From Myxococcales bacterium (GTDB lineage: Bacteria; Myxococcota_A; Polyangia; Polyangiales; Polyangiaceae), in the NCBI GenBank assembly GCA_020430845.1, contig JAGQJA010000263.1, positions 1-34,636 on the forward strand: a stretch of 34,636 bases of DNA. The letters run 5' to 3'. This document shows positions 13,272-15,439 of the stretch, piece after piece (the stretch's first letter is position 1; each line of letters starts with the position of its first letter). The notes under the pieces are model-generated. The model searched no databases. It had not been told where the DNA came from and saw only the letters and a program-made list of their open reading frames with translations. The position numbers were made by a program, and so were the translations under genes.

Positions 13272-13601
13272 ATGCAGCACCTCCTCCTCGAGCTCGGCTT
13301 CCCCTGCGACGACGCTCCGCCGACCGTGCGCCCGCAGGCGACGTTCCGCGTCGAGCTGCTGTCCAAGCCCTTCTACGGGGCCCGGCACGAGGTGGTCTGC
13401 ATCGACGCGCGCGATCACCGCGCCGAGCCCGACGACGTGCCGACCCTGCGCTCGCCCCGAGCTCCTGACTCGGGCTGGCGCCTGACCGCGGCAGCCGAGG
13501 ACGCGCCCCCTCGGCCCAAGCCTGCGCGGTCGTCGATGGTCGTGCCGAGCCACGCCAAGCCCGCCAAGAAGCGCAGGGCGCGCCGGCGAACTGCCGCCTG
13601 A
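13272..13601 (+). CDS. Small hypothetical protein with basic C-terminal tail
   Basis: Unrecognised 109-residue product. ATG 13272 follows TGGAGAGAGCG, a good ribosome-binding site, which decides it over the in-frame upstream codon at 13224. The N-terminal 55 residues look folded (MQHLLLELGFP, TFRVELLSKPFYGARHEVV). The C-terminal third is Pro/Lys/Arg-rich and ends in KPAKKRRARRRTAA, suggesting nucleic-acid or membrane-surface contact. No signal peptide is visible. It stands alone between the giant lipoprotein gene and the repeat island. Coding is moderately likely from codon pattern and ribosome-binding site. Confidence 0.6.
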   Translation: MQHLLLELGFPCDDAPPTVRPQATFRVELLSKPFYGARHEVVCIDARDHRAEPDDVPTLRSPRAPDSGWRLTAAAEDAPPRPKPARSSMVVPSHAKPAKKRRARRRTAA

Positions 13602-13654
13602 CTGGAAGGCCCGCGCGCGGTCCCCGGACCTGCGGGCGCGTCGAGCCCTGAGCT

Positions 13655-13719
13655 AGTACCGCCCGGCAGAAGTTCGGCCACATTCCGAGCATGACTTGGG
13701 GCCGATAGGACCAGTGGAA
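13655..13719 (+). repeat. Direct repeat copy 1 (head of IVS-like element)
   Basis: This 65-bp block recurs at 14200-14263. Both begin AGTACC, share CGGCAGAA(A)GTT, diverge over about 15 bp, and end with a near-identical 29-bp core (13691-13719 here, starting ATGACTTGGGG and ending GGACCAGTGGAA) with one 1-base indel. Each copy is followed downstream by a GTGNNN hexamer array. Confidence 0.8.
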
Positions 13720-13722
13720 TCG

Positions 13723-13781
13723 TTGACGTGGTCGTGGACGTGGTCGTGGACCTTGGCGTGAACGTGAACGTGGACCTGGAC
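13723..13781 (+). repeat. Left inverted repeat made of GTGNNC-type hexamers
   Basis: After TTGAC the sequence is a run of six-base units: GTGGTC, GTGGAC, GTGGTC, GTGGAC, CTTGGC, GTGAAC, GTGAAC, GTGGAC, CTGGAC. The reverse complement recurs at 14104-14162 with five mismatches in 59. If transcribed through, the two arms would form a very long hairpin. Confidence 0.85.
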
Positions 13782-13847
13782 TTCTCCACTTTGACGATCC
13801 CCGCGATGACGAAGCAAGCGGGGGCCGAAGGCGCCGAACGGGGAGGC

Positions 13848-14087
13848 ATGCTGAGCTTCCAACGTCTCGACGTCTATCAGCGGGCCATCGAGTTCCTCGC
13901 GCTCGTTGGCGACGTTGTCGCCGAGCTACCGAAAGGCCATGCCGAACGCAGCGATCAGCTCGTCCGAGCCGCAGAATCCGTCGTCCGCAACATCGCCGAA
14001 GGGGCGGGTCGCTGGTCGGATGCCGACAGCGCCAAGAGCATCCGCCTTCTCGAAGCCGTCGTCGCCATGTTGACCAAGATGTTCTGA
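13848..14087 (+). CDS. Four-helix-bundle (23S rRNA IVS-type) protein with internal deletion
   Basis: A 79-residue product. The N-terminal two thirds match the four-helix-bundle / S23 family: MLSFQRLDVYQRAIEF (1-16), then DQLVRAAESVVRNIAEGAGRWSDADSAK (about 37-64). Family members then continue with a YxIARGSAxE...LD helix of about 40 residues. Here the reading frame passes straight to SIRLLEAVVAMLTKMF, which looks like the normal C-terminal helix. The protein is therefore about 40 residues short of the usual 115-120, consistent with an in-frame deletion. ATG 13848 starts at the family's usual N-terminus, with GGGAGG very close before it. An in-frame ATG at 13806 and a GTG at 13728 would add repeat-encoded residues. 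Relatives form homopentamers; some are accessory proteins of retroelements. Function here is unknown and may be lost. Confidence 0.65.
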   Translation: MLSFQRLDVYQRAIEFLALVGDVVAELPKGHAERSDQLVRAAESVVRNIAEGAGRWSDADSAKSIRLLEAVVAMLTKMF

Positions 14088-14103
14088 CCGTCAACGTCTG
14101 GCC

Positions 14104-14162
14104 GTTCACCTCCACGTTCACGTTCACGTCAAGGTCCACGACCACGACCACGACCACGTCAA
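14104..14162 (+). repeat. Right inverted repeat, complement of 13723-13781
   Basis: Reads GTTCAC, CTCCAC, GTTCAC, GTTCAC, GTCAAG, GTCCAC, then three GACCAC and GTCAA; its reverse complement aligns with the left arm unit by unit. A further partial unit (GGTCCACGTG) continues to about 14172. Confidence 0.85.
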
Positions 14163-14199
14163 GGTCCACGTGCTCTTCAGACCTCCGGCACGCGTCATG

Positions 14200-14263
14200 A
14201 GTACCGGTCGGCAGAAAGTTGGCGAGATGACGACCATGACTTGGGGCGATAGGACCAGTGGAA
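14200..14263 (+). repeat. Direct repeat copy 2
   Basis: Second copy of the block at 13655-13719, with the conserved 3' core at 14235-14263. It is followed after 45 bp by four GTGCCC hexamers but no gene, so it looks like a solo or decayed element head. Confidence 0.8.
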
Positions 14264-14308
14264 GGGCCGATCGGTCTGCAGGTACAGATCGCCGCTACGC
14301 TCTCGTAC

Positions 14309-14332
14309 GTGCCCGTGCCCGTGCCCGTGCCC
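14309..14332 (+). repeat. (GTGCCC)x4 hexamer array
   Basis: Four perfect tandem GTGCCC units, flanked by GTAC before and CGATCTC after. Their position downstream of direct repeat 2 mirrors that of the GTGGTC/GTGGAC units downstream of direct repeat 1. A small hairpin (GTCCC-ATATA-GGGAC) follows at 14348-14362. Confidence 0.75.
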
Positions 14333-14466
14333 GATCTCGTCTCGCAGGTCCCATATAGGGACAGACGCTCGCCGCGGACGTGGGAAGGGCCCCCCGCGGG
14401 TTGGGGGCGTGGATCCCCATGGGTCCATCATGGAGCCTTCGAGATCCACCAATCGGCTTCGTGTAG

Positions 14467-14536
14467 TGAAAGAGCCTACCGAGCTAACGCTCGGGAAATG
14501 TTGCTTGCCAAGCAACCCCTGTTGGTAGGCTTTTCA
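14467..14536 (+). ncRNA. Candidate branched structured RNA upstream of flp
   Basis: An outer stem pairs 14470-14480 with 14524-14534 (AGCCTACC with GGTAGGCT at its core, one G-T pair). Inside are two perfect hairpins: GAGC-TAAC-GCTC at 14481-14492 and GTTGCTT-GCC-AAGCAAC at 14500-14516. The second has the exact shape of a tRNA anticodon arm (5-bp stem, TTGCCAA loop, GCC triplet as in tRNA-Gly), but there is no T arm, so it is not a normal tRNA. The outer stem is followed by TTTT, so an attenuator or terminator role is also possible. It lies about 150 bp before the pilin start. I do not recognise a named riboswitch class. Confidence 0.45.
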
Positions 14537-14685
14537 GTGACACTCGACGCGGGCGCATGGCACGGCTCGTGAAGAGAGGAATGTCGACTCGCGGTCGCGA
14601 CCCCAAAGGTCGGGTGGCGACGAAAACGCGTGTGATTCCGGCGAATCAGCGCGAACCTCAGAAACGGACCAAGGAGAGACACATC

Positions 14686-14841
14686 ATGAACAAGAGCATC
14701 CAACTTCTGAAGTCGCGCGGCGCCAGCATGGTCGAGTACGCGCTCCTTCTGGTTGCGGTCCTCCTGCTCGCCGCGGCGGCCTTCAAGGCGCTCGGCCCCA
14801 AGGTGGGTACGTCGGCGACGAACGCGGGCGCCCAGCTCTGA
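14686..14841 (+). CDS. flp: Flp-type major pilin
   Basis: A 51-residue type IVb (Flp/Tad) prepilin. The short basic leader MNKSIQLLKSRG is followed by ASMVEYALLLVAVLLLAAAAF, so cleavage after Gly12 puts Glu at +5 and Tyr at +6, the Flp hallmark for processing by the CpaA/TadV peptidase encoded next door. The rest is a short C-terminal tail (KALGPKVGTSATNAGAQL). ATG 14686 follows AAGGAGAGACACATC, a strong ribosome-binding site. The in-frame upstream codon at 14557 gives a basic, non-leader extension and is rejected. The mature protein should polymerise into the adhesive Tad pilus. The strong ribosome-binding site, the structured leader before it and the stem-loop after it suggest separately tuned, high expression. 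Confidence 0.93.
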   Translation: MNKSIQLLKSRGASMVEYALLLVAVLLLAAAAFKALGPKVGTSATNAGAQL

Positions 14842-14850
14842 TACGGTGTC

Positions 14851-14884
14851 GTGAAGGTGGGGGCGCTCGGGCTCCCACCTTCAC
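14851..14884 (+). promoter_or_regulatory. Stem-loop between flp and cpaA
   Basis: A perfect 11-bp stem (GTGAAGGTGGG with CCCACCTTCAC) around a 12-nt loop, starting 9 nt after the flp stop and ending 12 nt before the cpaA start. No T-run follows. It may stabilise the pilin message or partly terminate, giving more pilin than peptidase. Confidence 0.6.
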
Positions 14885-14896
14885 CATGAGACCCGT

Positions 14897-15439
14897 ATGA
14901 GCATCCACCCGTTCTTCATCGGAGCGGGCATCGTCGCAGCGCTCGCTGCGGTGTTCGACTGGAAGACGGGAGAGATCCCGAACTGGGTGACCCTTCCAGC
15001 TCTGCTCATCGCGCCGTTCGCGCACGCAGCACGTCAAGCGGCGGCCCACCAGACCGGAGAAGAAGCGCTCTGGGAGGCGGGCTATTCGTTGGGCGGCGCC
15101 CTCGTCTGCGCGATCGTGCCGATGATCCTCTATCGCCAGTCGGCGATCGGCGGGGGCGACTTGAAGCTCCTCGCCGCGCTCGGCGCGATCCTTCAGCCGT
15201 CGCTCGGCGTCGAAGCTCAGATGTATGGCTTCTTTGCGGCCACCATCCTCGCTCCGGCGCGGCTCGCCTACGAGGGCAAGCTCCTCTCGACGCTGAAGAA
15301 CTCGTTCGCGCTCGGCATGAACTGGTTCGTGCCGAAGTCGCGTCAGGCCTCCGTCGACGCCACGACCATGTCGTGGTTCCGCCTCGGCCCGGCGATCTTC
15401 TTCGGTGTGGTGTTCACGGCGTACCTCCACTGGACGTGA
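14897..15439 (+). CDS. cpaA: Flp prepilin peptidase CpaA/TadV
   Basis: A 180-residue A24-type aspartic membrane peptidase. The two catalytic Asp residues are visible: Asp21 in FDWKTGEIPNWVT (the D.....IPN..T motif) and Asp88 in IGGGDLK (the GxGD motif). About five to six hydrophobic segments span the chain, and the length fits the short TadV/CpaA class that lacks a methylase domain. It should remove leaders from both Flp-type pilins (14686 and 15563) and perhaps from the TadE-like proteins, inside the cytoplasmic membrane. ATG 14897 immediately follows the stem-loop; its ribosome-binding site is weak, consistent with low expression relative to pilin. Confidence 0.92.
   Translation: MSIHPFFIGAGIVAALAAVFDWKTGEIPNWVTLPALLIAPFAHAARQAAAHQTGEEALWEAGYSLGGALVCAIVPMILYRQSAIGGGDLKLLAALGAILQPSLGVEAQMYGFFAATILAPARLAYEGKLLSTLKNSFALGMNWFVPKSRQASVDATTMSWFRLGPAIFFGVVFTAYLHWT

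Follow-up and report, generated by a model that had tools for sequence, protein, structure and literature searches.

A four-helix-bundle gene between mirror-image hexamer arms in a Myxococcales genome: perhaps a decayed passenger of an IS5-type transposon

Genes of the PF05635/TIGR02436 family are known from the intervening sequences (IVSs) of 23S rRNA where, as described in a section of PMC4990558, the protein (IVP) is encoded between inverted ends that form a long stem; the same section describes both the origin of these IVSs and the role of their protein as unclear. Some IVP genes lie outside rRNA, and a part of PMC3936711 reports them in cas loci. Another such gene is found in the stretch of 34,636 nucleotides from a Myxococcales bacterium that we analysed here as a whole (hereafter the window), between two arms built of hexamers and, farther out, two direct repeats. 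The question is what kind of unit carries this gene: an IVS that was copied back from RNA into DNA, as an earlier note on this DNA had considered, a passenger of a DNA transposon, a module that moves by its own means, or simply a structure of the host.

Table 1. Features of the unit, numbered from the first nucleotide of the window
Feature	Position	Strand	Basis or remark
CTAG before the left end	13653..13656	.	sole CTAG in 13400-14500
Left element end, the first direct repeat	13655..13719	+	13657-13677, TACCGCCCGGCAGAAGTTCGG, is the terminal inverted repeat of a congener MITE family
Left hexamer arm, units GTGGTC/GTGGAC/GTGAAC	13723..13781	+	repeat search, fold, register test
PF05635/TIGR02436 four-helix-bundle gene, 79 aa, 32 residues deleted internally	13848..14087	+	profile matches, comparison with relatives
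Right hexamer arm, mirroring the left one	14104..14162	+	repeat search, fold, register test
Left element end again (the second direct repeat), same orientation, with ATGAG where the first has CTAG; remnant of another element copy	14200..14263	+	

The arms, the direct repeats and the gene stand where the earlier note had placed them (Table 1). The arms are complementary at 54 of 59 positions, and as this falls to 40 of 53 after a shift by one hexamer, they pair in the order of their unit variants and not merely by type of unit; in the repeat search the pairing reaches 77 nt at 84% (13723-13799 and 14086-14162). The direct repeats comprise 48 nt at 79% (13655-13702 and 14200-14247) and 21 nt at 95% (13699-13719 and 14243-14263). 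A transcript of 13720-14172 is predicted to fold into a single long stem with the gene in its loop (-239.5 kcal/mol, z -9.75, none of 100 shuffles being as good). The gene scores 43.1 bits against PF05635 (23S_rRNA_IVP, cut-off 33.8) over profile positions 2-62 of 106, a match that is partial because 32 internal residues are missing relative to intact relatives (111 aa in L083 and L082), and 40.4 bits, above the cut-off, against TIGR02436 ("four helix bundle protein"). An alternative GTG start in the same frame lies at 13728, within the left arm. The closest solved structure is 2GSC, and a title cited in PMC3936711 concerns the pentamer of this IVP relative (2GSC/Xcc0516). No Rfam family matches the window at its gathering score and the unit lies in neither 23S nor 16S rRNA, so that the idea of a protein family and inverted ends of the 23S IVS kind, with their stem, occurring here outside rRNA is borne out.

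The nature of the direct repeats is more telling. The first one opens with TACCGCCCGGCAGAAGTTCGG directly after CTAG, and its start is matched at nine places in three congeners (G008, G010 and G001), where it bounds short palindromes or elements of about 180 bp as their terminal repeat; CTAG stands at one or both ends of eight of these nine copies, and both inverted ends can be recognised in four. In another genome (G007, locus L415) a diverged version with six mismatches lies directly outside a GTGGTC arm. A target duplication can be ruled out, the two direct repeats being 79% alike against 92% for the arms and both starting with the congener terminal repeat; because the second repeat duplicates the first end without inversion, the window contains two left ends, and the right inverted end of the unit is missing. 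The window copy thus has a terminal inverted repeat on its left only and CTAG at 13653 only; its right side has neither an inverted terminal repeat nor a CTAG, and there is no transposase close by. In contrast, terminal inverted repeats at both ends, as in IS5 elements and MITEs, are found in four relatives (L065, L241, L209 and L177), CTAG on both sides in L209, L241, L177 and nine of 12 two-armed hairpins, and an IS5-family transposase in relatives.

The window is contig C94 of a genome of 8.56 Mb in 806 contigs (G000), and only one further piece of its lineage is present there (C329:7316-7560), a partial one that holds the C-terminal part missing in the window copy together with the right arm, and from which the 5' or N-terminal part is absent. 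The PF05635 matches on four other contigs of the host (C76, C84, C393 and C151) belong to another subfamily. Synteny with congeners does not extend to the gene upstream of the unit, which leaves the window copy without a clean empty site; the Flp-TadV locus downstream is present in eight congeners, and in none of the eight was an IVP match or a hexamer tract found within the 1.5 kb examined. This locus begins in the window, at 14557-15439, with a Flp-like pilin frame (recognised by eye) and, after it, the gene of a prepilin peptidase (PF01478); it is a Tad-like locus, conserved in those eight congeners. Upstream of the pilin gene, 14468-14541 could form an RNA resembling a three-way junction (-37.5 kcal/mol, z -4.8; no Rfam match up to E 5), and 14308-14345 is a single tract of GTGCCC hexamers that matches the arms of a type of hairpin, gene-less and bounded by CTAG, of which four congeners have many copies.

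How general are the mirror arms? A first set of 58 relative genomes gave PF05635 matches in 34 (among the matches listed) and 104 loci, 100 of them among the matches listed and four extras from the host search. In the 102 loci with usable flanks, scored against mismatched flanks, inverted scores reached the 95th percentile in 39 and the 99th in 21, and direct scores in 36 and 17; this set includes tandem and paired genes, both repeat orientations are enriched in it, and the direct excess is partly owed to such genes. A profile of the window subfamily run against GTDB contigs yielded 393 relatives, and the best 80 of these 393, which were kept, span Myxococcota, Verrucomicrobiota, Thermodesulfobacteriota, Bdellovibrionota, Chloroflexota, Planctomycetota, Pseudomonadota and others. 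Seventy-six of the 80 have both flanks; 48 of their inverted scores are at or above the 95th percentile and 23 at or above the 99th, against 13 and 9 of the direct scores, each count including a run-of-N artefact (L245) without which the 95th percentile is reached by 47 of 75 inverted and 12 of 75 direct scores. An insertion of the gene into a pre-existing hexamer array seems unlikely for the 76-locus set, in which direct scores are rarely high, but may apply to some families of the 102-locus set, in which they are raised nearly as often as inverted ones. Compared with 577 control windows of the same geometry taken from the same loci, 73 related loci have a median score of 29 against 12; 50 of them reach the control 99th percentile and 32 exceed the control maximum, no control window being above 30.

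The arms of the 54 loci scoring at least 20 have a period of six in 46 cases, of seven in one and none in seven, and their unit varies among loci (TCGTGG, TCGTAA, TCTTAA, ACCTGC, CCCGTG and others). The register effect seen in the window is general in the 43 loci tested: over 30 nt, the best match between the arms has a mean of 28.1 when they are in register, against 21.5-21.7 after a shift by one hexamer. When the window was aligned with L171-L174 over 48 pairs (L170 being omitted because an arm indel removes the anchor), 92.9% of the cells were paired and 12 pairs had changed on both sides, a number reached in none of 500 shuffles and falling to at most two when the arms were slid. The sequence of the arms differs among lineages while both arms of one locus change together, which may reflect either selection for pairing or copying between the arms. 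Among ten pairs of L170-L174, dN/dS is 0.05-0.16, with dS near or above 1 and so near saturation, and these values suggest that the IVP protein is under constraint. A tree of 76 proteins, based on few columns, implies 21 phylum changes where 10 would be the minimum.

Indications of a carrier come from relatives in other Myxococcota. L065 (G003) reads, in order, CTAG (1372), GGGCGTGTCCCTGAAC, a CCCGTG arm, the IVP gene, a transposase in the opposed orientation, a CACGGG arm, GTTCAGGGACACGCCC and CTAG (2741, 2745); its GGGCGTGTCCCTGAAC ends are perfect with CTAG outside both, and the transposase is of the IS5 type with DUF4096. A stretch of 1.39 kb, with CTAG at either end, is common to two other loci, L241 and L209 (90.6% alike), whose flanks are unrelated. 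In L177 the order is CTAG-GGAGTGTCCCTGAATCGG, transposase, arm, IVP gene, arm, CCGATTAGGGACAGGCC-CTAG, and the transposase occupies two overlapping frames with matches to DUF4096 and DDE_Tnp_1; each frame also covers one half of the IS5 equivalog NF033580 (positions 2-114 and 109-258). In these relatives the gene, its hexamer arms and an IS5-family transposase constitute one element, which lies at unrelated sites.

This should not be generalised too readily. Of 235 deduplicated IVP loci, only seven have a piece resembling a transposase at a distance of up to 1.5 kb (the contrast, none in 200 kb farther out against seven in 655 kb of near sequence, being weak alone), and no CTAG ends were found at the closest relatives of the window (L170, L171 and L173), so that an IS5 carrier may explain some lineages only. 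CTAG lies within 350 bp on both sides of 19 of the 235 loci, six of which, outside G060, have matching ends above the 99th percentile of the null. Near the loci CTAG was counted 53 times against 16.8 expected (32 of 77 loci), an excess part of which may come from stop codons and intergenic position, since the control is mostly coding DNA, in which CTAG is rare. A count of end motifs gave 20 matches against about 1.8 expected, eight of these 20 being from the single G060 family.

Near-identical units occupy different genome sites in G031, G038, G043, G026, G060 and others, and in the window's own lineage (L170-L174) the alignment runs across arms and gene, the flanks being unrelated in the pairs compared. 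The Oligoflexia genome G060 has nine copies with a common right end, GAGTACAGGCCCTA, and differing flanks, with no clear terminal inverted repeat or target duplication. In one of its loci (L301, 1316-1581) the right end recurs inverted on the left, an arrangement that an inversion between the arms would produce. At L098, L064 (G039), L136, L137 (G020) and L119 (G043), two different IVP genes form a convergent pair of a kind that recurs in the genome. The multiple copies with the same ends that the earlier note had hoped to see are thus present in relatives, and in the host they amount to the one partial copy on C329.

Hexamer hairpins also occur without a gene. Element L194 of Sorangium So ceGT47 (G058) has arms with about 100 further matches, and 14 of 18 regions examined, chosen from matches that looked paired, are two-armed hairpins about 60-200 bp apart with no room for a gene and no evident CTAG end. 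The same genome has many heptamer and hexamer hairpins (L312-L329) with GTCTCCC and GTGCGC units, often beside gene ends. Gene-less CCCGTG/GTGCCC hairpins are frequent in G004, G006, G007 and G011 (at least 29, 40, 30 and 32 matches to the whole query, respectively), and 12 of 16 regions examined, mostly from congeners and again chosen among matches that looked paired, are two-armed; each of the 12 has CTAG at 30-50 bp beyond its left arm, and nine of them have it on both sides, where chance would give 0.06 per side. One of these hairpins (L405) still reads ..KTLRNYAAVV.., by eye the C-terminus of a transposase. Hexamer tracts, which are frequent in these genomes, are therefore mostly mirror pairs with defined ends where examined. 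As to empty sites, hairpin L312 is absent between matching flanks in five of five congeners, which have 62-301 bp instead of about 610, and element L194 is absent between matching flanks in G068, G069 and G070, G066 and G067 matching on the right flank only. Empty sites thus exist for these two, if not for the window copy, and with relatives both dispersed within genomes and absent at orthologous congener sites, the earlier view of a small, non-autonomous unit of a mobile type has gained support.

Several explanations compete for these observations. The IVP gene and its hairpin might be a self-sufficient mobile module acting through the IVP protein, with IS5 elements capturing it secondarily; most IVP loci have arms and no detectable transposase, mirror arms with different units occur in several phyla, and the nine G060 copies have a common right end but no clear terminal inverted repeat or target duplication. 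We nevertheless hold this to be rather unlikely, as IVP proteins show no recognised catalytic domain (only PF05635/TIGR02436), complete IS5 composites exist, and even in G060 a piece of an IS5-like transposase adjoins one copy (L186). A module resembling the 23S IVS, whose hairpin would be cut out of transcripts by RNase III and whose RNA would be copied back into DNA at new sites, would account for the protein family, for the inverted ends (as in the section of PMC4990558 cited above), for the strong RNA hairpin and for the absence of the 5' part in some copies (C329 of the host, L296 in G060). Such 5' truncation may or may not be a signature of retrotransposition, contig ends confusing most cases. 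However, three G061 copies begin at nearly the same internal point, unlike random truncation; an Rfam scan of 20 of the best 80 loci gave a cobalamin riboswitch as its sole match and no rRNA or LSU match in any of the 20; and there are composites with terminal repeats and CTAG on both sides. Moreover, a search of 11 genomes for RVT_1 gave matches in nine but none in G061 or G064, which have 16 PF05635 matches each, so that a retroelement dependent on reverse transcriptase is not supported. We consider this RNA route improbable, and the retro-copied IVS of the earlier note has to be given up as the favoured reading, given that the direct repeats are element ends and that relatives have an IS5 transposase, terminal inverted repeats and CTAG. 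Membership in IS200/IS605 or REP/RAYT is likewise unsupported, PF01797 (Y1 transposase) being found in 6 of the 11 genomes and not in five (G000, G002, G029, G047 and G058); neither enzyme is supported as a general mobiliser. Weak PF01797-like reading frames of about 270 aa gave 34 matches in G061 and 13 in G064.

It could also be argued that nothing moves, and that the hairpins are host structures, such as two-sided terminators at gene ends, with a host gene inside by chance. Many hairpins do lie between genes or just past them, and some IVP genes have conserved neighbourhoods (L218 and L234 of Verrucomicrobia align over 5 kb), but near-identical copies at unrelated sites and the absences of L312 and L194 described above already make this hard to hold for the families tested, and we regard it as more improbable still than the RNA route. 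That the mirror arms are chance low-complexity sequence hardly deserves belief: hexamer tracts are common in these genomes, as the earlier note had feared, yet the register test, the control windows, the fold and the covariation refute chance.

We therefore think it somewhat probable, on balance, that the unit in the window is a decayed, non-autonomous passenger module of an IS5-type DNA transposon, and not a retro-copied IVS. In the window, an IVP gene lies in a long hexamer hairpin adjoining the CTAG-preceded terminal repeat that bounds congener MITEs; among relatives there are composites, terminal repeats, CTAG on both sides, unrelated flanks and gene-less derivatives. For most loci seen, the window copy included, the mobilising enzyme is one that we infer: an IS5-family transposase, provided in cis or in trans, would cut at the terminal repeats and insert the element into CTAG, which would become duplicated. 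The IVP gene would be a passenger kept by selection, and the subterminal hexamer arms would lengthen, shorten and change by slippage, their complementarity being maintained by copying between arms (quasi-palindrome correction) or by selection for pairing. Later decay would have removed 32 codons and the right terminal repeat from the window copy, together with any transposase. In the G060 family and among the Sorangium hairpins the ends are of another kind or unclear. A broader proposal, which we make tentatively and with more doubt than conviction, is that IVP genes and hexamer hairpins are one mobile module across several phyla, with arms continually rewritten by slippage and arm-to-arm copying (possibly assisted by the IVP pentamer) into lineage-specific units that stay complementary, and with 23S rRNA IVSs as one landing place.

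There is nothing new in IVSs, IS5 elements, MITEs or foldback transposons as such. The window unit differs from the 23S rRNA IVS in lying outside rRNA, in having arrays of hexamers as arms and in that some of its relatives are within IS5 elements. IS5-family elements (NF033580 type) and their MITEs resemble the relatives of the window in transposase, terminal inverted repeats, CTAG on both sides and internally deleted derivatives, and are unlike the window unit in that the latter has a four-helix-bundle passenger and long hexamer arms, and no transposase or right terminal repeat. Foldback and Galileo elements are eukaryotic, Galileo with a transposase of the P superfamily, whereas the present ones are bacterial and their repeats lie, where seen, inside short terminal repeats. 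The Avd proteins of diversity-generating retroelements are pentameric four-helix bundles, a likeness to IVP; in contrast, no reverse transcriptase or variable repeat was seen beside IVP loci (the search being RVT_1 in 11 genomes). In the open-access PMC literature we found no description of IVP genes with mirror arms of hexamers or other repeats, or as passengers of IS5 or other insertion sequences, which is no proof of absence in print. A DNA transposon as carrier of the IVP family would offer a concrete and testable route, and suggests how such genes spread; and hexamers that are specific to each locus but matched between its arms are a natural record of how long bacterial palindromes change and yet stay palindromic.
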